Shown piece after piece: positions 300-15,663 of a DNA stretch of 55,899 nucleotides; positions within the stretch are counted from its first letter, which is position 1, and each line of letters opens with the position of its first letter. Under the pieces are notes generated by a model. The model was not told the origin of the DNA, did no database searches, and saw only the letters and a program-made list of their open reading frames with translations. Both the position numbers and the translations under genes were made by a program. The DNA is from Candidatus Saccharimonadota bacterium (lineage in GTDB: Bacteria; Patescibacteriota; Saccharimonadia; Saccharimonadales; OFTM59), in assembly GCA_029260855.1 (NCBI GenBank), contig JAJDCK010000017.1, positions 1 through 55,899 of the forward strand, given 5' to 3'.

Positions 300-1172
300 T
301 TAGAAAGGGCGTTCGCCTTGGTCCAGGCGTTGGCGAATTAACTTTAATTCGTATCTTCTACCAAGCCAGAAAGTCATAATAATAAGTGGTATCAATGCTG
401 CCGCTGGTTGCCAAAGAAGCCTAACTGGTTGTTTACCTCCGTCAATAGCCGCGGCCTCGCCAACACCATCCTGACCTAACGGCCCGTTGCCGACACCGAC
501 TAGCTGTAAATATGCCACGGCGCCGCTGGCATCAACCGCTTTTACGATAATATTATATACGCCTGGTCGTTCGTATATATGCTCTATATCGAATGGTCCA
601 GGCGATGGTCTACTACTAAGATCAACAGGCTTTCCGTCGCCCCAATCTACACTGATAGCATACGGGCCTTGCCCGCCACTTAAAATAACCGGCCAGACTA
701 AGGACTGTCCTGGGTTGGCGCCACGCTTCGCAAAGTTACTGGTTAGCCCTACGCGAGAAACAGATCCGGGCCTTCCATCATTGAAGGTAACCCGTACAAT
801 ATTAGAGTCTGGACCTGGTTGATCCAGTTCATCATAAACACGGGCCACTAGTTCATTCAAACCGCTGAAAAGGTCAATCTGGACAGAAAAACTACCATTG
901 CTACACTGAGTAGAACCAGCAAAAACGTTATTCTTAAAGACTTTTATTAGCAAGTCGTCCTGGCAAATGCCAGCCACTGTAACAGGGAGATCGGCAAAAA
1001 TTTGACCATCGCGTGGTACGGATATGGTGGCTCCTACCGTTGGGGGTGGGCTACTTATACGCCCCTCCACGCCTATTGAGCCGCTATCCTCGGCGGCATA
1101 AATAGTCGAGCCAACTAAAACACAGCTAAGACATATGGCAACCAGTACCATTAATGTTTTAATATGGTGCAT
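300..1172 (-). CDS. Secreted/anchored surface protein with Ig/PKD-like repeats and C-terminal TM
   Basis: Signal peptide, PKD-like 'DWGDG...IEHIYERPGVYNIIVKAVDASG', C-terminal hydrophobic helix plus basic tail. Confidence 0.65.
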   Translation of the reverse strand: MHHIKTLMVLVAICLSCVLVGSTIYAAEDSGSIGVEGRISSPPPTVGATISVPRDGQIFADLPVTVAGICQDDLLIKVFKNNVFAGSTQCSNGSFSVQIDLFSGLNELVARVYDELDQPGPDSNIVRVTFNDGRPGSVSRVGLTSNFAKRGANPGQSLVWPVILSGGQGPYAISVDWGDGKPVDLSSRPSPGPFDIEHIYERPGVYNIIVKAVDASGAVAYLQLVGVGNGPLGQDGVGEAAAIDGGKQPVRLLWQPAAALIPLIIMTFWLGRRYELKLIRQRLDQGERPF

Positions 1173-1197
1173 GTTACAACTATATTAACATAAGGGT

Positions 1198-2205
1198 TTA
1201 GTGACGAACTTTTTTGTATTTGTGGCCAGTTGCGTGTTTCTTGACCCAACCAATCATCAAAACTATAAGAACAATAAACAGCGTAACGGCAAGCACAGAC
1301 CACCAAGGTAGGTACCAAAATACGCCACGTATAGTAAGAATTTCGCCACCATTACCGAAGCTAACGTTGGCTGTGGCTACATAGCGACCAGGCGTACCTA
1401 CACCGCTCACTGGATCCTTAAAAATTCGAGTGCTTGATGGTAAGATGTTGCTGCGTGGATCAGTGTCGTTAATCTCGTATTGATGTACTTGCTTACCTAA
1501 AGGGTTGGAAACGGTGACGCTCCCAAAAGGTTTCACGAACCCATTACCCTGGTTGCCTATGCGGATGCCAATTTCTTCTGGTTTAGCGCTGAAAATTGTC
1601 CCTGGCACATTCTTACGATAAAAGAGCACATCCTTTGCCTGGACTTGCTGGCGGATCTCGCCCGGGACCTCGATCATGACTATAGTTCCAACGCTGGCAG
1701 TAAGCGACACCTCGCCTGACTCAAGGGCTTTATTACTGGCCGGGATAGCCGCATAACGAATAACACCGTAGTATGCCCCGGGGGCTGCATCAACAGGTAC
1801 CTGCACGGGGATGTCAAAATTCTGTCTTTCGCCTTTTTTAAGATCCAGGTCCGTTACTCCGACCAGGAACGGCTTGATGCTGGGGGCCCTTCTGGTGTCG
1901 GTTTCAGGTAAAAGCTTGGGCTCGCCTGTTTCGCCGTCGGACTCAAAGTCGTTTACGAACACCTTCGCTACAATATCGCCGTTAGTAACATTTCTGACGC
2001 TCATTTTAATGATGTCTGCTTGACCGCGTTCAATACTGAGTTCTGTGCGCGTTGGTGAGATACTAAGCCCACTACCGGTACTACTATCAGATTGGGCCAG
2101 TAGAGTTACAGTAAGTCCTGTGATCGAGAACAAAGACACAAAAAAAACCAGTAGCAACTGTTTTAACATGCGCAAACCGGAAGTCCTGCCTTTATTGGTT
2201 CCCAT
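1198..2205 (-). CDS. DUF916-like cell-surface protein with C-terminal TM
   Basis: 'GLSISPTRTELSIERGQADIIKMSVRN...' and 'DLKKGERQNFDIPVQVPVDAAPGAYYGVIRY' resemble DUF916; signal peptide and C-terminal TM. Confidence 0.65.
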   Translation of the reverse strand: MGTNKGRTSGLRMLKQLLLVFFVSLFSITGLTVTLLAQSDSSTGSGLSISPTRTELSIERGQADIIKMSVRNVTNGDIVAKVFVNDFESDGETGEPKLLPETDTRRAPSIKPFLVGVTDLDLKKGERQNFDIPVQVPVDAAPGAYYGVIRYAAIPASNKALESGEVSLTASVGTIVMIEVPGEIRQQVQAKDVLFYRKNVPGTIFSAKPEEIGIRIGNQGNGFVKPFGSVTVSNPLGKQVHQYEINDTDPRSNILPSSTRIFKDPVSGVGTPGRYVATANVSFGNGGEILTIRGVFWYLPWWSVLAVTLFIVLIVLMIGWVKKHATGHKYKKVRH

Positions 2206-2246
2206 AATTTATCTTAAGTTTACAACAACAAGTGGCATACATAAAA

Positions 2247-3302
2247 TTAAAATGCTGCTGTCGCTAAAAAAGTAAGTGTAGTGTTGTAAATACCTGGTGC
2301 TTGATTGGCGGATACGTTCACAAGATAGGAAACAGTAAACAGATTAAATTCTGTTGATAAGCTCGAGGAAGATAAACTAGTGCCGGGCTGAAACATAAAG
2401 TTGTTAGATAGGTTGTAGCTTGTGTCTGCGGTGGCCGTGCCGGGCCCTATCACATCCTGACCAACTGCTGGACTGGAGTTCGCCCTTAGGTTAATTCCGA
2501 ACTGACTGGTGCCTGGCAGGCTTGGTGACGGACTGCTTAATTCAGGGATAGTGTTGTTGCCTGAGGTCATAGTAACACCAAGCACGGTGACATTATAACC
2601 ACTTGGGTCGTTACTAGCCCCGGAGTATTGAGACGCCCCTGTGTTAGCTGTGGCCTTGCTAAGCTCGCTCAGGTTAATGTAAAAACCGCTGGCATCTGTA
2701 CAATCCAGTGCGACCGTTATGCCACTACAAAATGTAAGGTGAGGAGGCACAAAGGCATCTACGTTGAGTGGCTGATTAGTCGCGAAGGCAACACTCCCAG
2801 AATCATTGTGAGCACCAGTGCCGTCTGTGCTCCCATATGTCCTGATACGCACAAATGTTGAGCTTGCACCCGACGGGTTAACAATATCTTCAAAAACATA
2901 AGATGAAGGCACGATAAGCCCGGGCAAAGGCGGGCGAGTTATTACAAGCATGTTGGCGGTTGTGCTCCCTGGGTCAATCGCAAAACCAATATTTCCCGTC
3001 TGGTCATTTAGTATAGCCGCCGAAACATCAAGACCAGCCGGAGCACTACAAGGTATTTCATTTAAGGGGCTGTTAGAACAATACTCAAACACTATTGAAC
3101 CCATCACTGCTACGCTGGGCACAGTAATCGCAAAAGCATGTTGTGCTGTGGCGCCGGGAATGGCAGTTGATATAGCAACCGAGCGCGAATCAAGACTAGC
3201 CGCCAGTGCTGGTGCGTGTATGAATAACACAGACGCCACTATAGCAAGCAGTGTCTGTGTTTCGTGCAATGCTAGATTGATTTTATGAAGAAATCCTCGC
3301 AT
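2247..3302 (-). CDS. Secreted surface protein, C-terminal '..G.Y...L.F.AT..F' motif (WxL-like?)
   Basis: Signal peptide; ends APGIYNTTLTFLATAAF, similar to neighbouring secreted proteins. Confidence 0.55.
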   Translation of the reverse strand: MRGFLHKINLALHETQTLLAIVASVLFIHAPALAASLDSRSVAISTAIPGATAQHAFAITVPSVAVMGSIVFEYCSNSPLNEIPCSAPAGLDVSAAILNDQTGNIGFAIDPGSTTANMLVITRPPLPGLIVPSSYVFEDIVNPSGASSTFVRIRTYGSTDGTGAHNDSGSVAFATNQPLNVDAFVPPHLTFCSGITVALDCTDASGFYINLSELSKATANTGASQYSGASNDPSGYNVTVLGVTMTSGNNTIPELSSPSPSLPGTSQFGINLRANSSPAVGQDVIGPGTATADTSYNLSNNFMFQPGTSLSSSSLSTEFNLFTVSYLVNVSANQAPGIYNTTLTFLATAAF

Positions 3303-3345
3303 TAGTCATACTGTACTTCAGTTAAATGATTATGATTATATATGG

Positions 3346-4641
3346 TTAGAAGGTTGCGGTTGCGATGAAATCCGCCTGAACTGTATACGACCCGGTTGGC
3401 GTGGCCGCGGAGGCGGTAACCGCAAACTTTAAAATTAAAGCTTCGTCATCTACAACTTTTGTTGCAGAACCTGCAGAGCTAGCAATTGTGTCTGCAGCAG
3501 CGGTTGCGTCCCACGCGTATTGACCGGTGGTGGTGCCGGATACCATGTTGCTATCGGAAACATAAGTGTTGTTTGGTGCTGCTCCACCATCATAATCTAC
3601 ATCTCTAACCAAGTTATAGCTGCCTGAACCAAAATTACAGGTGTATGCAGTCGCGCTCACACAGTTAACTCCTGCAACAACCATCCCAAACTTTTCCGTT
3701 CCAGCCGTAAAGGTACCGGGCGTAGTCCCTTGAGCATTAAAACACTGGTCGGTCACCACAACCCCCGAACAAGCCGCGCCAGCCACCTTAAGTGTGCCGC
3801 TAGAGTTGTTGAGTATTGACTTGTAAGAAACCACAACACCATTAAGCGCATTGGTCCTGACCATAGCTATACCGTTAACGTTTGAGCCCCCATTACCTGT
3901 CGCAACCGGTGAGACGTTAGTAAAACCACTTTCTACATTTCCGATGTCTACCGTAGTACCTGTGATAGCACTACAATCGGCACCAGGAGTAGTGGTAGCA
4001 TCGTTAATTGTTGTGGATCCGACGCAGAAGACAAGGTTTTCCTGGACACGCGCATTAACCGTCAATGTCTGCGAGGTGCTTTGGGCAAAAACACCCTCCC
4101 ATACTAGCGTTGTTCCTGTGTCGCTATATATACGCATGCGAGTGTAGTAGCTCTTGTTAGCGACCGCGTTGTTGGTGATATCAGTTGGGCTTAGCGATAT
4201 TGTGGCCTCGTCTTTGCTAGCACCAGCGTCTGCAGTTGTTTTGTCAATCAAAATCTGATTGTCTGTGCCGCCGTTATCGCCTGATTGACGCGAAGCTGTG
4301 TTGCCGCCAGAGGTAAAGTTAGTAAGCGTAGCGGTCAACGAAACGGCAATGGTCGGGGTGTTGACGATAGTACAGGTGCCTAGTGGGGTATCACAGAATT
4401 CTATTTCAATGTGGTCTATGTTGGCTACATCTGCGGTCGTATCAAAAATCCAGGTGAGGTCCGTTGTTTGACTGGGGCGCGCGCTTGTGGATTGTAGCTC
4501 ACGTTCTGTAAGCGTTGGTGCAGCATGTGCCACGCCAGGCATAAATACAGGTGAGAAAACTGACAGCATTAATATGGTTGCGTATATTAGGGCTTCAAGT
4601 CTCTTCGCCCGAGCCTTCTGGCGAAACCAGTACTTACTCAT
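3346..4641 (-). CDS. Secreted surface protein, paralogous architecture to 2247..3302
   Basis: Signal peptide; ends TPTGSYTVQADFIATATF; internal 'QENLVFCVG' resembles 'PPHLTFCSG' of the neighbour. Confidence 0.55.
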   Translation of the reverse strand: MSKYWFRQKARAKRLEALIYATILMLSVFSPVFMPGVAHAAPTLTERELQSTSARPSQTTDLTWIFDTTADVANIDHIEIEFCDTPLGTCTIVNTPTIAVSLTATLTNFTSGGNTASRQSGDNGGTDNQILIDKTTADAGASKDEATISLSPTDITNNAVANKSYYTRMRIYSDTGTTLVWEGVFAQSTSQTLTVNARVQENLVFCVGSTTINDATTTPGADCSAITGTTVDIGNVESGFTNVSPVATGNGGSNVNGIAMVRTNALNGVVVSYKSILNNSSGTLKVAGAACSGVVVTDQCFNAQGTTPGTFTAGTEKFGMVVAGVNCVSATAYTCNFGSGSYNLVRDVDYDGGAAPNNTYVSDSNMVSGTTTGQYAWDATAAADTIASSAGSATKVVDDEALILKFAVTASAATPTGSYTVQADFIATATF

Positions 4642-4796
4642 TTTTGTTTCCTTTTGTTGATTTTAGTTATTTCAATACTACTTTTAACACAGCCCTGGTT
4701 ATAGCGCAAGCATTTTCACTGTATTTGTCCACAGTATTTACCTTTAAAAAGATAGCCGATGCTTAAAGCCAGCCACACACCAAACACCCCAGGAGG

Positions 4797-5486
4797 TTAG
4801 CGTGTTTGAAATGACTTTATGATCCCCCCAAGCTCTCGCCCGTCGCCACCTGCCGTTAAATCCTTATACACTATTAGATATCGAGCATGGGTGTTATCGG
4901 GTCGCCACAGCTCTATATACGGACTACCGCCTATTTGACTGATAACAACATCAAAGTTACTCCCGTCGCCCCTGCAAGTAAACGTGGTGTCGTTGAGTGT
5001 TACTGTTCGTATCTGCTTCTTTTCTTCATCCGGCAGCGCAGACCTACAGTGCTGGCTGATCCCGCCCACCACCTCAAAACCACCATCAGGTTTTGGCCTG
5101 ACGGGTTGAACATAAGATACATCTATTGATTGGATGGAGGGGTTTACGTAGATATTCAACTCGTGCTCAATCAAGGGGCCTCTAAACGACCGGTAAACGA
5201 ACTTGTTTACTGTTGTTTCTTTCGCGTCAGCAAGCCAAGTCTTGTTTGCCTGAAATTGAAAATATGCAGTTCTAAAAATCTCAACTGAGGGTGACTGTAT
5301 GCTGGTCTGTACCTCCGATATCGGCGCTAGGTTTTCTTGTCTCGTAAATACGCTCGTTGTCAACAACAAGACCACCAGCAAAACAGGCGTGCCGGCAACT
5401 AGCCCAACCATAAACCACTTGCCATGTGCAATCAATTTATGTCGGCGTTTGCTCGGGTGATCTATACGATAACTCTCTTCAAACAC
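4797..5486 (-). CDS. Membrane-anchored extracytoplasmic protein of unknown function
   Basis: N-terminal basic segment plus one TM; intact ORF in the surface cluster. Confidence 0.5.
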   Translation of the reverse strand: MFEESYRIDHPSKRRHKLIAHGKWFMVGLVAGTPVLLVVLLLTTSVFTRQENLAPISEVQTSIQSPSVEIFRTAYFQFQANKTWLADAKETTVNKFVYRSFRGPLIEHELNIYVNPSIQSIDVSYVQPVRPKPDGGFEVVGGISQHCRSALPDEEKKQIRTVTLNDTTFTCRGDGSNFDVVISQIGGSPYIELWRPDNTHARYLIVYKDLTAGGDGRELGGIIKSFQTR

Positions 5487-5558
5487 GATAGTTATATCCT
5501 GATTTAGCTTAGCATATATAAATCTGACCGGGCACTAGCGACGAGAGACCTAGCCGGC

Positions 5559-6329
5559 TCAATAAGTTACAACCGCAACCAGGTCGTGCTCCATCCGATA
5601 TGTGCCACCTGCAGTAATGTTGCTGATGTTTGCGATATACGAGATCGTATAGTCGGTACGGCCAACAGCTTGCCTACCAATGGTTGCCTGTGAACGCGCA
5701 ATAGTATCGCCCACACCGTAGGCGTATTCATTCGGGTCATCATAGTCACGCTCACCCCCCGGTCCATCTCCAAACGCCTGCCCATCAGCATAGCTATCAT
5801 CAGGCACATTAACGGGATCGGCGCCGAAGGTCGCAGGAGACGTATTGGCAACCAGATTGATGCCAAACTCCTCTGTTCCTGGGCTGGACGCGCCAGTAGT
5901 AAGTTTGGGGCTCAATACCGCCCCTCCCTCACTTGTAAGCGACTGGCTCATCGTCTTAACAAAGTAGCTACTTGATAAATACGTCCGGATCCAAAACACT
6001 CCGACTCCAGTTCCTGTTGACGAGCTACTTAATGTCCCCAGATCGACCACCGTACTATTTACAAACATTTCCAAGTAGGGTGCGTTGGGAGTATAGAACC
6101 CCGCCTCAACGTCATAATTAGTACTAGAAGAAAGGCCAACACCCAAGCTACCCAGACCAGCCTGGACGTTATAACTACCAGAGTTCAGGTCCACCTCGCC
6201 TCCACTACCAAAATACGCTTCTTCAACGCGATAGCTATTTGAAGAAGATTGAGCCCCAACTCTAATCGGAAGCAGTGCGCCGATTACCAATAACACGATC
6301 AGTGTTCTTACGTGTCTCTTTTGTCTCAT
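5559..6329 (-). CDS. Secreted surface protein, same C-terminal motif
   Basis: Signal peptide; ends ITAGGTYRMEHDLVAVVTY. Confidence 0.55.
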   Translation of the reverse strand: MRQKRHVRTLIVLLVIGALLPIRVGAQSSSNSYRVEEAYFGSGGEVDLNSGSYNVQAGLGSLGVGLSSSTNYDVEAGFYTPNAPYLEMFVNSTVVDLGTLSSSSTGTGVGVFWIRTYLSSSYFVKTMSQSLTSEGGAVLSPKLTTGASSPGTEEFGINLVANTSPATFGADPVNVPDDSYADGQAFGDGPGGERDYDDPNEYAYGVGDTIARSQATIGRQAVGRTDYTISYIANISNITAGGTYRMEHDLVAVVTY

Positions 6330-6429: not shown

Positions 6430-7413
6430 ATGGACACATCACCTGAAGACAAAGAAATAAACTCCCTCGAGGACAGTAGTGTTGGCTCAAGCCAATCGAG
6501 TAGTGACGGCCCAACAAATAAGCCCAAGCAAGACACAGAACAACGCAACAGGCCCAAGAACGAAAAAATTAACCAACGAATTCAAAATCTAATAACAAGG
6601 GTTAATATATACCTCTTATTGTTTGTCCTTGTGGTGATTATAGCGGCAAGTATTGTGTTTATCAGTTTACAGCAGAATAAAAAGGAGCTGAGGGAGGCTG
6701 ATATTGCGGCAACGCAACTAACCGCAGAAGAACTAAAAGAGCTGGGGATTAACGATACGAAGGTTGGTGACCCCAAGCAAACACTTACAATTGAGTCTAA
6801 TGCTATTTTCACTGGTCAAGCGCTGGTCCGTGGCAACCTTGATGTGGCCGGGGAAATCAAAGTAGGCTCTGCTTTGAATTTGCCAGGCATAAACGTTTCA
6901 GGTGCAAGTACGCTAGGCCAGGTTGCAGCCAACGATCTTACGGTTGCAAACAGCGCGTCAATACAAGGCCAATTGAGCGTCCAACGCACGCTATCCGTAG
7001 CTGGTAGCGCGTCTTTCGGTGGCAGTATTACCGCACCACAACTAACAATCACGATTCTGCAAATTAATGGCGATTTGCAATTAAATCGACATATAGATGC
7101 TGGGGGGCAGACACCAAGCCGGACAAACGGCAGCGCTCTTGGCGCGGGCGGCACCAGTTCTATCAGCGGCACAGACACGGCAGGCACATTGAGCGTTAAC
7201 ACAGGCGGCGGTCCACCGGCTGGTTGCTTTGCAACCATTACCTTTGCACAAGCATTCAGAGATACTCCCCACGTAGCAGTCACCCCAGTAGGGTCCGCGG
7301 GCGGCACCCTTAATTATTATGTAAACCGGTCTAGTGCAAGCTTTAGCATCTGCACCGCGACACCTCCTCCCGCAGGCGTCTCGTTCGCTTTTGACTACGT
7401 TATTATTGACTAG
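6430..7413 (+). CDS. Type II membrane-anchored fibre-like surface protein
   Basis: N-terminal cytoplasmic segment, TM, then repetitive 'V.G.L.V.G...' beta-stalk repeats and a compact C-terminal domain. Confidence 0.55.
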   Translation: MDTSPEDKEINSLEDSSVGSSQSSSDGPTNKPKQDTEQRNRPKNEKINQRIQNLITRVNIYLLLFVLVVIIAASIVFISLQQNKKELREADIAATQLTAEELKELGINDTKVGDPKQTLTIESNAIFTGQALVRGNLDVAGEIKVGSALNLPGINVSGASTLGQVAANDLTVANSASIQGQLSVQRTLSVAGSASFGGSITAPQLTITILQINGDLQLNRHIDAGGQTPSRTNGSALGAGGTSSISGTDTAGTLSVNTGGGPPAGCFATITFAQAFRDTPHVAVTPVGSAGGTLNYYVNRSSASFSICTATPPPAGVSFAFDYVIID

Positions 7414-7581: not shown

Positions 7582-7889
7582 TCACACGTCTAGGAATACG
7601 ATGACTTTGTCTTTTTTGACGTGCATGATACCGCGGTTAATTGGAATTTTTTCATCATTTTTGCCGGTGCGAACTATAATATCGCAGGCACTTAGCAGTG
7701 TCATGAAGTTATGATGGTGTGGCAAAATATCAAATGCTCCCGTTTCGTTTACCGCCGATATACTCTGTGCATCACCGTCGTAGTAGGTTTTGAACGGTGC
7801 GTATATTTTGACATGCATACGCTTGCCGTCATAAGCAGTCGCACCTGGTTCAATAGTACTCTTTGTCTTTTGGATTAACCCTTCTGGCA

Positions 7890-7890
<1 letters not shown>
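7582..7890 (-). CDS. atpC: F1-type ATPase epsilon-like subunit (beta-sandwich domain only)
   Basis: 'GAFDILPHHHNFMTLL' resembles 'GDFGILPGHAPLLT'; last gene of the operon; no C-terminal helical domain. Confidence 0.75.
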
Positions 7891-10056
<2,166 letters not shown>

Positions 10057-10060
<4 letters not shown>

Positions 10061-11568
10061 TTTTCAGCCTCAACGCTTTCTTTATGGTCTTCGTCTTTGG
10101 CAGTTACGGTCGGTGTGTTTTGCCTAGGCTGCTTTCTGTCGCCCATTAATTCCATCGTGCAACTTTTCTCAAGATCATCACGGACCTTTTCGTACTGGTC
10201 GTCATTTTTTATCTTTTGCGCAGCTTCGCGAACCCCATTCTTGAGTTTAGGCACATCAAGTACGCCTTGTTTTTCTATATTTAAAACAATGTCGAGCATT
10301 AGTTGTTGCTCTATCAAAGAATACGTGTCAGAAGGATTTTGTGTCAGCAACTCGAGGATCCGTCTGCCTGTTTCCAGAGTATGTCGGGACTCGATGGCTA
10401 GTTCTGATCCAAAATGTGAAAACTCTTCGGCCTGACGATAATCAGCCAGCAGCTTAAGAGCCTGAGCAGCTATGGATTTTTGTCTTTTAGTATGACCTGA
10501 ACCACCGACGCGAGTGACCGAAAGGCCCATACTAAGAGCTGGGCGGACACCATTACGAAAAGTGTCCATATCCAAAATCCATTGTCCGTCAGTTATTGAC
10601 ATTATATTGGTCGGCAAATATGCAGTTATGTCGCCCCCGGCAGCATTAACCAGAGGTATGCTCGTAAGGTGTTTGCCATTTTTCTCCAGACGACCAGCCC
10701 TTTCAAGCAAGGATGAATGGGCATAAAACATATCGCCCGGATACGAGTCGCGACCTGGGCTAACCCCCGATAGTAGTGCAACTTCACGGTAGGCGTGAGC
10801 ATGACTGGTCAAATCATCATAAATAATTATAGTGTCCTGGTTTTGTTCTTGCCACAGATATTCAGCCATAGCGCATGCCACATAAGGCGCCAGATAACTC
10901 ACTATAAGTGATTCAAACATAGTAGAGACGACCACTATGGCTTTTTCTAGCCCGCCGTTTTCCTCTAAGCGACTCAGCAGCATGTCCACATCGCTTCGCC
11001 GTTTCGCGATCAACGCATAAACAACCACCTGCTCTGTGTTCTTCTGGTTAATCGTCAGCTGGGTTACGAGCGTGCTTTTACCTGATTTGCTGTCCCCCAA
11101 CAAAGCCATACGCTGCCCTCGTACAATGGGGAACAGTGCATCTATAGCGATGACCCCGCTTTCTAGCTGGGTATCGAGCAGTTTTCGCTGATAGAGTGGT
11201 GGCGCCGTATTAAAGACCGGCCATGTCGCGTCCGCAGCTATGGGGCCTTTGCCGTCAAGAGGCTCACCCGTTACCGACACGACTCGTCCTATGAAGTCCT
11301 TACCAACCTTGCACACCAGCTCTTGATGCTGCACTACAGCTACTAGACCCACCGATACCGGTACCGTGCCTAGGTGTAAAACAACCACGTGATCGTTCAG
11401 TACCTGATGAACAAAGCCCTTGCTGCCATCTTCAAACATAACCAGCGCATGTATGGCGCACGGCTGTAGCCCCTGCACCCTGATCAGGAACTTGTCAACC
11501 GCTATAACTTCTCCTACCGGGTGCCCCGAGTCAACCAGACGACTAAAGTGCTGATTGGTCGCGCTCAC
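10057..11568 (-). CDS. atpA: F1-type ATPase alpha subunit
   Basis: [10 protein letters not shown]-loop, [29 protein letters not shown] arginine-finger region. Confidence 0.9.
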
Positions 11569-12227
11569 TGCTTGGCCCTCCTTTGTGCTGGCGACTCACC
11601 AGGAGTTAGAGGAACGACCGGCTGCGAAGATAGAAGCTTAGCGCGTCGCGGGTCAACATAAGCTAATTTCGGAGCTGACTCGACAGGCACCGTAGGAGCT
11701 ATAGGTGAATGATCTTTTAAGGTGTGAAGCTTATTTATGAGCGTGTTTTTTTCTTTCACAAATTTCTGTCGTAAGCTGAAATCAAAATGCCGATTGGTCG
11801 TCCTCAAGATACAGCCCGCGCCAATTGTTGGCTGAAGACCAACCTGCAATAAAACAGTAGGACCGATATTAGTTCTCAGCCAGGTGACAAGCTTCTGTAA
11901 AAATAGCGGCGAAGGGTCCGAGCTAAAACTCATGTGCATTAACGGAGCGCTATTTCTAATTTTTTCAAGAAACTCACGCATGGCTCTTCTGTCAGCTTCG
12001 AGCAGAGGCTCAAGTTTATTCTGCTGGATCATTTCGTCAAAAAGCCTGCTCGTCTTGGGGAGTTTTGGGTTGTCATTTGGTTCGCGCAGGACAGCCGCCT
12101 CCAAAAAATTATCCAAAGCATCAAGCTCCCGGAGTAGCCGGGCAACATCCATTCGCCCAACTATGGCTATGGGGAGATGTAGATCGGGCTGTACATGTTC
12201 GTGCGTATCAACCATGTCATGTATCAC
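11565..12227 (-). CDS. atpH: F-type ATPase delta-like subunit
   Basis: Operon position and C-terminal '[32 protein letters not shown]' delta-like segment. Confidence 0.65.
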
Positions 12228-12271: not shown

Positions 12272-12901
12272 CTACACCCCGCCTGACATATCCGCAATAA
12301 TCGCATCTTTGTTAGCCTCAAGGCTACTCAAAATGAATTCAAGTTGATCATTCAGGTCAATTTGGTCCCCGATCGCTGCTAGCACATAGTGATTGATCAC
12401 ATCGGCCATATTGTCCTCAAAACGTTTAACCAGTAATGTTAAGCTTTTTTCTGCTTCAAGCTTTATCTGCTGATTCATTACTTGGCGCTGCTGCTCAATA
12501 GCTTCTTGGGTCTTAGTTATAGAGTCAATCGCGAGCTGTTTAGCGTCGGTTATTGATTCTTCATACTTAGCAAATTCTTCCTGAAGTGTGCGAGTAATTT
12601 CTGCTTTCATGTATTCATTAAGCTGGGAGGTGGTCAGCCTGAGATCTTGCTGCAAAAACATCGCGTTTTCGCCAATAATTTTCTCAAAATGCAGTCGCCC
12701 ACGGTTTCTAAGCTCTTCACGAAACTCGTTATTGAAGATGTGTTCAACATCTTCTTCGGCGCGCTCGGTCATTACGTCGTGAGGGTTTTTGTGTTTACCT
12801 TTTTTACGCGCTCCACTGTTTATACGGAAGCCGACCCACAAGAAAGCTAGCGTTGCCGATGCTAGACTTCCTAGTACTAATGCGAGTGCCCAACCATTCA
12901 C
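12272..12901 (-). CDS. atpF: F-type ATPase b-like peripheral stalk subunit
   Basis: Single N-terminal TM followed by long charged coiled coil; directly upstream of the delta-like gene. Confidence 0.65.
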   Translation of the reverse strand: MNGWALALVLGSLASATLAFLWVGFRINSGARKKGKHKNPHDVMTERAEEDVEHIFNNEFREELRNRGRLHFEKIIGENAMFLQQDLRLTTSQLNEYMKAEITRTLQEEFAKYEESITDAKQLAIDSITKTQEAIEQQRQVMNQQIKLEAEKSLTLLVKRFEDNMADVINHYVLAAIGDQIDLNDQLEFILSSLEANKDAIIADMSGGV

Positions 12902-12924: not shown

Positions 12925-13758
12925 TTATAGCTTTAGTAGTAAATATACTCCAAAAATGCCACTTACAAAAATAGTTAAGCCCACAATCACTACTTGCAGC
13001 ATCCCTTGAATTATTGATTTCTTGCTAAGCGGGTTGCGCCCGACAGAAGTAATCCCCGCTTTTACGCCTCCAAAAAGCAAGCTGGCCGCAATCGCAGTAC
13101 TGACAAAAAATATAACAAGACCCATATAGATACGGGGAGGTTCAACCGGCTTCCCGGCTATATCTTCCGCAGCACGACCTAAGAAGTCCGGCAAACTAGC
13201 CGCTGATTTTTGTGTCGGGTTACGCGCTACTTGTATATCCACCCGCACGCGGCCCACATTAATCGTTCTATCCCCTACCTTTGTTGAGCTAACCACGCCA
13301 TTATGACCATCAAACAGCTCTAGAGCCCTGCCAGCTACGTAAGGCTGTTGGTCATCTACTCGCATACCAACTCCATCCAATGAAGAGGTTGTTATGTAAT
13401 CACCGGGGTTGATTATCCCGTTTTGGTCACTCACCAACACGTCATACTTGCCTACGGTAGCCACGAACACTTTTTGGTCTTCGGCCGATAGTGTTACCGG
13501 AGCGTCATTAGCGTCTACAACGACACCGTGTAATTTATCAGCATGCGTTGAACTGACAGCTTCTACCGTGCTTGTATCGGAATCCTTAATCCCGACCAGC
13601 ATGCCTCGCTGTAGGGCGCCCTCGGCGCTATTGTATCCTTGCGTTACCGCTTGCGCCGATAGCAAGCCTCTTGAACTCAGCACTATCAATAAAATCAGCA
13701 TGCAAAGCGCCAGGACGCGGTAAAGCGGAAAGAGGCGTAGAATTTTTTCTTTTATCAT
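12925..13758 (-). CDS. Extracytoplasmic beta-rich domain fused to a degenerate ATP synthase c-subunit-like hairpin
   Basis: N-terminal signal/TM, ~190-aa extracytoplasmic domain, then two TMs flanking 'SVGRNPLSKKS' (c-subunit polar-loop signature); first gene of the F1 operon. Confidence 0.65.
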   Translation of the reverse strand: MIKEKILRLFPLYRVLALCMLILLIVLSSRGLLSAQAVTQGYNSAEGALQRGMLVGIKDSDTSTVEAVSSTHADKLHGVVVDANDAPVTLSAEDQKVFVATVGKYDVLVSDQNGIINPGDYITTSSLDGVGMRVDDQQPYVAGRALELFDGHNGVVSSTKVGDRTINVGRVRVDIQVARNPTQKSAASLPDFLGRAAEDIAGKPVEPPRIYMGLVIFFVSTAIAASLLFGGVKAGITSVGRNPLSKKSIIQGMLQVVIVGLTIFVSGIFGVYLLLKL

Positions 13759-13810: not shown

Positions 13811-14953
13811 TCAAATAATCGCCAGGATACTTCTAATAGTTTTGATGATAGCTGGTTTGGTCGTAGAGCGACCGATAGTAAAACGCAGCGAGGCTTGAGC
13901 CTTATTATCATTGAGTCCAATGGCTTTTAATACGTAGGAGGGCTCATCACTACTAGCACTGCAAGCTGAGCCTACCGCGCATTGGATGCCTGCCTCATCA
14001 AGTAACATCATCAATCGCTCATTGTCCTGGCCAGCAAAGGTTACGTGTATGTTGTTTGGTAGTCGCGACTTAAGCGATCCGTTAATGATAGAGTCCGGAA
14101 ATTCTTGAGACAATAAGGCGATGAACTCGTCTCTCAGCTCTTGTACGCGACGCGATTCGTCTGAGCGCATACTTTGAGCTTTATCAAGCGCGGCACTTAA
14201 CCCGATGATATTAGCCACATTTTCAGTACCACTGCGTTTATCGTTTTCCTGTCCACCGCCCACTATCAAAGGCGTTAAGGAAATTCCTGACTTAACAAAC
14301 AAAGCTCCGCTCTGTTTTGGGCCGTATATTTTCCCTCCGTTAAGTGTCATCATATCAACGCCAAGCTTGGACACATGCAGGTCCAGGTAGTTGCCAGCCT
14401 GTGCGGCGTCCGTATGAAAATATAAAGGCAGCTTTATGCCCCGTTTTTGGCGGTCTTTTTTAATTTCTTCCAGGGCTTTCGCGATTCGGCGCAAGGGCTC
14501 TATTGTACCGATTTCATTATTTGCATACATAATGCTCACTAACACAGTTTTATCGTTAACAGCTGTTTCTAGCGACGCCAAGTCAATTACTCCGTCTGGC
14601 TGAACCTTAGCGACACGGTTGTCGTAGCGCTTTGACGGTTTTAAAACAGATTCGTGTTCAATGGTGCTAACTACAATATTGGCATCAGGATAGGTACCCA
14701 TGACTCCCATAATGGCCAGGTTGTTGGCTTCGGTTCCGCCGGCAGTAAATATAATTTCACCTGAACGTGCGCCAAGCCAATGAGCTACACGTTCTCTTGC
14801 GCTTTGAATATCTTTTGTAATTATTTTTGCCGCTAAATAAGTAGCTGACGGGTTATGAAATTTTTCGGTAAAGTACGGTTCCATGCAAGTCAGAACATCT
14901 CGGTCCAACGGCGTGGCTGCAGCATAATCAAGGTATATAGATTTCTTGGTCAT
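13811..14953 (-). CDS. Cysteine desulfurase (NifS/IscS family)
   Basis: YLDYAAATPL, TAGGTEANN, HTDAAQA, GSACSA motifs. Confidence 0.92.
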   Translation of the reverse strand: MTKKSIYLDYAAATPLDRDVLTCMEPYFTEKFHNPSATYLAAKIITKDIQSARERVAHWLGARSGEIIFTAGGTEANNLAIMGVMGTYPDANIVVSTIEHESVLKPSKRYDNRVAKVQPDGVIDLASLETAVNDKTVLVSIMYANNEIGTIEPLRRIAKALEEIKKDRQKRGIKLPLYFHTDAAQAGNYLDLHVSKLGVDMMTLNGGKIYGPKQSGALFVKSGISLTPLIVGGGQENDKRSGTENVANIIGLSAALDKAQSMRSDESRRVQELRDEFIALLSQEFPDSIINGSLKSRLPNNIHVTFAGQDNERLMMLLDEAGIQCAVGSACSASSDEPSYVLKAIGLNDNKAQASLRFTIGRSTTKPAIIKTIRSILAII

Positions 14954-14974: not shown

Positions 14975-15343
14975 TTAGGCAACTGTAGCGTAGAGCTCGG
15001 CTTTAACTCGGTCACGGTAAAGCTGGGTAGCGTCAACCAAGCGATCCAGCTCTTGGCCGCTGACCTTTTGGTACTGTCCATTTTGAGACTTCAGGATAAC
15101 GTCAGGCCGCACGTCATAGCGCGTAGTCTTAATTTGGCGCTGCCCAGTTTGGTCAACCCACTCCTCGTGCCAAACCCAGGTGTGCTCGTCCAGGCAAAAG
15201 AATTCTCGGCGGCCGCCAGGACGAACAGGGCCAAACAACTGGCCACCTATCCTGGCCTCGTGCCGTAGTAGTTTACGATAAAGGTCCGCGCGGCGTTCTG
15301 CCTGCTTTTGAGCAACTATGCTATCAAACAGTTTGCGCAGCAT
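14975..15343 (-). CDS. Conserved hypothetical protein
   Basis: Intact ORF sharing the 15343 boundary with its neighbour in a minus-strand operon. Confidence 0.55.
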   Translation of the reverse strand: MLRKLFDSIVAQKQAERRADLYRKLLRHEARIGGQLFGPVRPGGRREFFCLDEHTWVWHEEWVDQTGQRQIKTTRYDVRPDVILKSQNGQYQKVSGQELDRLVDATQLYRDRVKAELYATVA

Positions 15344-15663
15344 CAGCCAGTCTCCCTAAATTCTTGTGCCATGTTGGCGAGCGATACAGCTGATGGTTGA
15401 GCTTCGCTGTTAGCCCGACTTCTATATTCATCCAAGCTATGTACATTTGCTGCCCCACTGTCAACAGGCGCCGCCGGGGCAATTTCTAGAGGCGGTCTTT
15501 CACCGAATAGTGTGACATATGGGCTGGAGCGTTCCTGCTGCTGAACCCGTAGTACAGAAGCTGCTGCTGCGTTTATTATTCTTTGGCGTTGAGCCACAGA
15601 GTCAATACGCCCATGTTGTTGCTCAGGGTTTGGTGAGCCTAAACCATAAATCGTTGCAGTCAT
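15343..15663 (-). CDS. Hypothetical protein
   Basis: Intact ORF overlapping both neighbours by 1-4 nt. Confidence 0.5.
   Translation of the reverse strand: MTATIYGLGSPNPEQQHGRIDSVAQRQRIINAAAASVLRVQQQERSSPYVTLFGERPPLEIAPAAPVDSGAANVHSLDEYRSRANSEAQPSAVSLANMAQEFRETG

Follow-up and report, generated by a model that had tools for sequence, protein, structure and literature searches.

Chp, a protein encoded in the Candidatus Saccharimonadota contig JAJDCK010000017.1, joins a membrane hairpin resembling the c subunit of ATP synthase to a domain predicted to lie outside the cell, and the question raised by its locus is what an F-type ATPase would do with such a subunit. The window referred to below is the whole stretch of DNA that was analysed (55,899 nucleotides), and all coordinates are positions in it. 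A preliminary description, made from the DNA letters, proposed an external domain tethered to a degenerate c-subunit hairpin; the C-terminal sequence that it quoted is exact and the open reading frame (ORF) is real, though on the minus strand. The ORF runs from 13758 to 12925, starts with ATG and encodes 277 amino acids (aa); the plus-strand reading of 12925-13758 is riddled with stops. Chp is not a chance reading, because 74 further loci in named genomes encode it, its GRNP loop is invariant in 41 of 41 aligned homologues, and when 2,616 proteins from the collected loci were scored with a hidden Markov model (HMM) of canonical c subunits, 24 Chp proteins came immediately behind the true c subunits and ahead of all other proteins. 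A closer homologue set was used for the Chp pattern scan, the initial alignment being too diverse. Searches of Pfam, NCBIfam and PHROGs gave no family name for Chp.

Chp is the first of seven genes lying on one strand in the order Chp-b-delta-alpha-gamma-beta-epsilon. These genes and their two flanking neighbours are as follows.

12925..13758, minus strand: Chp, with a signal peptide at about residues 9-35, a beta domain at 38-179 and a carboxylate-less c-type hairpin at 207-276; the proposed rotor-ring subunit
12272..12901, minus strand: b-like stator protein with one N-terminal transmembrane (TM) helix and a long coiled coil, strongly conserved
11565..12227, minus strand: delta/OSCP-like stator subunit; its model matches ATP-synthase entries, its Pfam match reaches only E=0.074
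10057..11568, minus strand: alpha-like subunit with P-loop GDSKSGKS and arginine finger SVTRVG
9194..10060, minus strand: gamma-like central stalk (PF00231, E=2e-30)
7890..9197, minus strand: beta-like catalytic subunit with GGAGVGKT and GIGERIRE intact
7582..7890, minus strand: epsilon-like subunit, 102 aa, N-terminal domain only, inhibitory C-terminal helices absent
6430..7413, plus strand: fib, 327 aa, with a TM helix at 60-78, a bactofilin-like beta region and a C-terminal knob; a membrane-anchored surface fibre
13811..14953, minus strand: NifS-like cysteine desulfurase, a conserved upstream neighbour

The operon has the catalytic alpha/beta motifs and the peripheral stalk (b and delta) of F1Fo ATP synthase, and an F1-like motor is well supported. 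Across the F1-like operons, the P-loop and the GER motif of beta are each present in 105 of 105 sequences, and the P-loop and arginine finger of alpha in 34 of 34. The b-like protein has no b-subunit match in Pfam; the structure model of the delta-like protein (pLDDT 84) has ATP-synthase entries as all of its best 45 PDB matches, mostly delta/OSCP or stator chains. The match of the epsilon-like protein to TIGR01216 spans positions 2-79 of 130, and the median epsilon length in F1-like operons is 102 aa. Subunit a (PF00119) is absent from the F1-like operon and was found solely in the canonical one. NifS is probably not part of the machine, since it stays at loci where the motor is lost. Upstream of NifS lie two small minus-strand genes (14975-15343 and 15343-15663) encoding proteins of 122 and 106 aa with no recognised family, and genes of similar size recur there in most loci. 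Downstream of the operon, the minus strand carries at 300-6329 a series of genes whose products are probably secreted or TM-anchored and are likely to be surface proteins; most lack a Pfam match, and one has a PKD-like domain.

Is the Chp hairpin a true relative of subunit c? Chp ends in two TM helices joined by a loop that carries GRNP, the two-helix hairpin with a polar RNP/RQP loop that is typical of PF00137 proteins. An AlphaFold2 model built with 41 homologues in the alignment (pLDDT 93) comprises the beta domain at 38-179 and helices at 207-241 and 243-276. The hairpin part of the AlphaFold2 model, at a pLDDT of about 97, can be superposed on c subunits of ATP synthase, and Foldseek against the PDB returns c subunits, e.g. 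9itt_H at a target-normalised TM-score of 0.87 and 1.2 A over 65 residues. A PDB sequence search with Chp up to E = 10 gave a single match, an ATP synthase c subunit, at a weak E of 1.1. There is no Pfam match of Chp to PF00137 up to E=1, and a genome-wide search with that family returns canonical c only. In profile-profile comparison (hhalign) Chp matches canonical c locally at P = 1.7e-5, carried mainly by the loop, and weakly in global mode (P 0.0014); homology of the hairpin to c is therefore supported by loop, fold and HMM ranking taken together. The two-helix c-type hairpin with an RNP loop that had been read from the letters is thus borne out by structure, sequence and HMM rank, and the c-subunit match that HHpred was expected to find or miss is present in hhalign. 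The hydrophobic stretch at residues 9-27 and a possible signal-peptidase site near residue 35, as read from the sequence, together with the model and the TM prediction, give a topology of signal peptide, outside domain and cytoplasmic RNP loop, which fits a c subunit.

The ion-binding carboxylate of helix 2 is not there. The preliminary description had counted 18 residues from the loop proline (P+18); the canonical c of the same genome has its glutamate at P+17, and both positions were examined. In the window Chp, P+17, P+18 and P+19 are G, L and T and helix 2 contains no acidic residue, as had been claimed. The homologues agree: among 119 distinct Chp proteins none has D or E at P+18, and an aspartate at P+17, where canonical c of this lineage has its carboxylate, occurs solely in two close relatives, which leaves 117 of 119 without an acid at either position, versus a carboxylate at P+17 or P+18 in 17 of 17 canonical c subunits. 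Loss of the ion site in Chp is well supported. The window's genome has a separate canonical F-ATPase operon elsewhere. No genome carries more than one subunit a or more than one canonical c, both in the canonical operon, and in a tree of alpha and beta subunits the two systems are well separated, with the canonical set forming one clade with full support. In four genomes that are 95-99% complete (G024, G025, G033 and G044) the F1-like operon and Chp are present, but subunit a and canonical c are both missing; the F1-like machine there therefore cannot depend on a canonical Fo. Because subunit a and the carboxylate are both missing, a Chp ring would carry no ions.

In place of the ion path Chp has its external domain. 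The N-terminal part of about 190 aa, earlier taken to be external and fibre-like, contains after the signal peptide a beta domain (about 38-179) whose structural matches are to phage appendages: Foldseek against the PDB finds a phage procapsid outer-shell protein (8pkh, E 6e-4), and comparison with viral models finds preneck-appendage, tail and DUF2190-like proteins with E down to 6e-9. The phage preneck-appendage and DUF2190-type domains share the fold of the Chp outer domain, but in Chp the domain is joined to a hairpin in the membrane, and it is a bacterium that secretes it. The same type of beta domain also recurs on its own within giant surface proteins, whose length reaches about 4,400 aa.

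The order NifS-Chp-b-delta-alpha-gamma-beta-epsilon holds in nearly all sufficiently long loci across Saccharibacteria, and beyond them Chp occurs with F1-like alpha, beta and gamma in at least ten further Patescibacteria families; the F1-like neighbourhood suspected for Patescibacteria is borne out. Almost all genomes of the 74 named loci bear the label Saccharibacteria, Saccharimonadia, Patescibacteria or unnamed bacterium; the two labelled otherwise (Chlamydiae, Bacteroidetes) may be mislabelled bins, and none of the 74 has the name of a well-known cultured epibiont. In 246 genomes of the order, each at least 80% complete, Chp and b-like occur together in 152, neither in 72, b alone in 20 and Chp alone in 2 (Fisher 8e-41, relatedness ignored). 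Whether the fusion always neighbours F1-like genes, as the preliminary description asked, has a divided answer: 98 of 120 distinct Chp genes do lie beside them, and 22 lie apart. The converse also occurs. Four genomes (G030, G121, G123 and G131) have a complete b-delta-alpha-gamma-beta-epsilon set in which Chp was not detected, and a search of them for any GRNP hairpin found none; the F1-like part can therefore persist without Chp, or with an unrecognised ring protein. Five more retain only the b-delta pair after NifS, with alpha, gamma, beta, epsilon and Chp absent. At three loci of one family (L211, L212 and L213, f114), a second Chp is separated from the F1-like b by three adjacent genes of about 370, 320 and 270 aa, possibly extra machine parts; the three at L212 match nothing in Pfam.

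What lies beside Chp when F1 does not? The fib gene is convergent with the operon at 44 of 71 loci, and where Chp and b-like are on different contigs fib adjoins Chp (eight genomes serve as examples, among them G051 and G235), which makes fib a candidate partner. Two additional Chp genes of the window's genome lie apart from F1, each by a giant TM-anchored fibre protein (1,534 or 1,629 aa), and in several genomes NifS-b-delta-alpha-gamma-beta-epsilon is kept with Chp elsewhere beside a giant fibre gene. A giant TM-anchored protein is encoded within 1.5 kb of 12 of the 22 distinct Chp genes away from F1, versus 26 of 938 similar-sized background ORFs. The operons of G118 and G353 contain a giant gene (1,599 and 1,501 aa) as the immediate upstream neighbour of Chp, and the 1,501-aa protein contains a Peptidase_S74 fibre-chaperone domain. 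At five loci of other Patescibacteria families (L218, L219, L220, L223 and L228) the operon-adjacent giants start with a MerR-like DNA-binding motif (a Pfam match for L223, read from the sequence for the others), behind which lie a putative TM helix and a fibre region of great length. A type IV secretion system beside the paralogous Chp genes was considered and rejected: the neighbours of about 979 aa are aminoacyl-tRNA synthetases, which we take to be IleS, and the 102-aa one resembles ribosomal protein L21.

It is most likely that this second ATP-synthase-like machine uses ATP to move something on the cell surface and does not pump protons or make ATP. We consider it rather probable that it is an F-type rotary ATPase without ion translocation, whose torque passes via a Chp ring to an extracytoplasmic ring or fibre assembly. 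The alpha3-beta3 head would hydrolyse ATP and turn gamma-epsilon, the foot of which would rest on the conserved GRNP loops of a membrane ring of Chp, while b-delta would hold the head still; the rotor would thus be gamma-epsilon-Chp ring and the stator alpha3-beta3-delta-b. Each ring subunit would present its beta domain on the membrane's outer face, and the ring would act as a mechanical coupler that transmits torque or ATP-driven cycling to surface fibres, either the 327-aa fib or the giant membrane-anchored proteins. The movement may serve adhesion, host contact or fibre assembly. Lacking subunit a, the stator would need another membrane partner, for which the TM helices of fib or of the giants are candidates. 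The Chp models are of monomers, co-occurrence and linkage do not in themselves demonstrate function, and we infer the ring assembly, its rotation, the fibre contact and the purpose of the movement. Against the rotary reading count the four genomes with F1-like operons without Chp and the five b-delta-only loci, and about ten bulky beta domains in one ring would have little room and would have to spread outwards. The fullest form of the proposal is put forward tentatively: an F-ATPase stripped of ion transport would have become an ATP-powered motor that rotates a ring of phage-like domains on the membrane's outer side and, by way of this ring, giant surface fibres.

The loci that keep the F1-like part without Chp also suit a static arrangement, in which the Chp ring would be a membrane anchor or scaffold, ATP hydrolysis by the head would serve some end in the cytoplasm or in regulation, and the outer domain would do no more than dock surface proteins. 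We think this unlikely, as the rotor and stator parts gamma, epsilon, b and delta are all kept and the invariant GRNP loop of the 41 aligned Chp proteins is the gamma/epsilon contact in c rings. Somewhat less probable still is an ATP-driven machine that assembles or exports giant fibres, with a role comparable to that of type III secretion ATPases, and does not rotate finished ones. The giant genes adjoin Chp in distant lineages, one giant has the S74 chaperone domain, and the mycoplasma Type 3 F1-like ATPase is required for a surface protein system (PMC12994834); yet most of the observed giants carry a TM helix or signal at the N-terminus, which makes the Sec route possible, and no export channel gene was recognised at the examined loci. 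That Chp still pumps ions, by mixing with canonical c, borrowing canonical subunit a or using another ion site, is very improbable: the canonical operon is present in most of these genomes and two close relatives have D at P+17, but the other 117 Chp proteins have no such acid and the four genomes at least 95% complete without any a or canonical c have the machine nonetheless.

As a rotary ATPase without an ion path, how does the Chp machine compare with known systems? With F1Fo ATP synthase it has in common alpha, beta, gamma, the epsilon N-domain, delta, b, the c-fold hairpin with its RNP loop and the catalytic motifs; it differs in having no subunit a, no c carboxylate, a c fused to a secreted beta domain and a short epsilon. 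Its alpha and beta score under the NCBI atpA/atpD cut-offs. The N-ATPase is likewise a second F-type operon beside the canonical one, but it has a and c subunits with carboxylates and is thought to pump ions; the proteins of the Chp operon do not reach the alt_F1F0 models (324 of 750 and 373 of 752 bits). Nearest in kind are the F1-like X0 ATPases of mycoplasmas (Type 2 and Type 3: PMC3369863, PMC12994834), which, like the Chp machine, are second F1-like ATPases of reduced bacteria that depend on a host, apparently pump no ions and are connected with surface functions. Their clusters differ in being without b and delta and in having a 12-TM protein and unrelated membrane parts, whereas the Chp operon has b and delta and no 12-TM protein; X0 Protein 5, of about 87 kDa, was judged mostly cytoplasmic (PMC3369863, PMC12994834). 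The NCBI mycoplasma-type models are not reached by alpha (250 of 520 and 319 of 600 bits) or beta (360 of 570 and 346 of 850 bits). A search of the open-access journal literature found no description of the Chp operon.

One review finds it puzzling that an "F-type ATP synthase" is retained by almost all Patescibacteria although they have no respiratory chain (PMC11665869), and in a survey many Patescibacteria were counted as having a reduced canonical ATP synthase or none (PMC10656485). Part of the "ATP synthase" annotation in Patescibacteria may be a separate machine without an ion path, and homology surveys should separate the canonical ATP synthase from the Chp-type machine. If the ring does rotate, a rotary ATPase has been re-used for work instead of ion coupling, and organisms that live on host cells would have an ATP-driven mechanical link across the membrane to their surface fibres. 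Such a machine, if the proposal is true, would stand beside ion-driven flagella and pilus ATPases as a surface motor of a new class.
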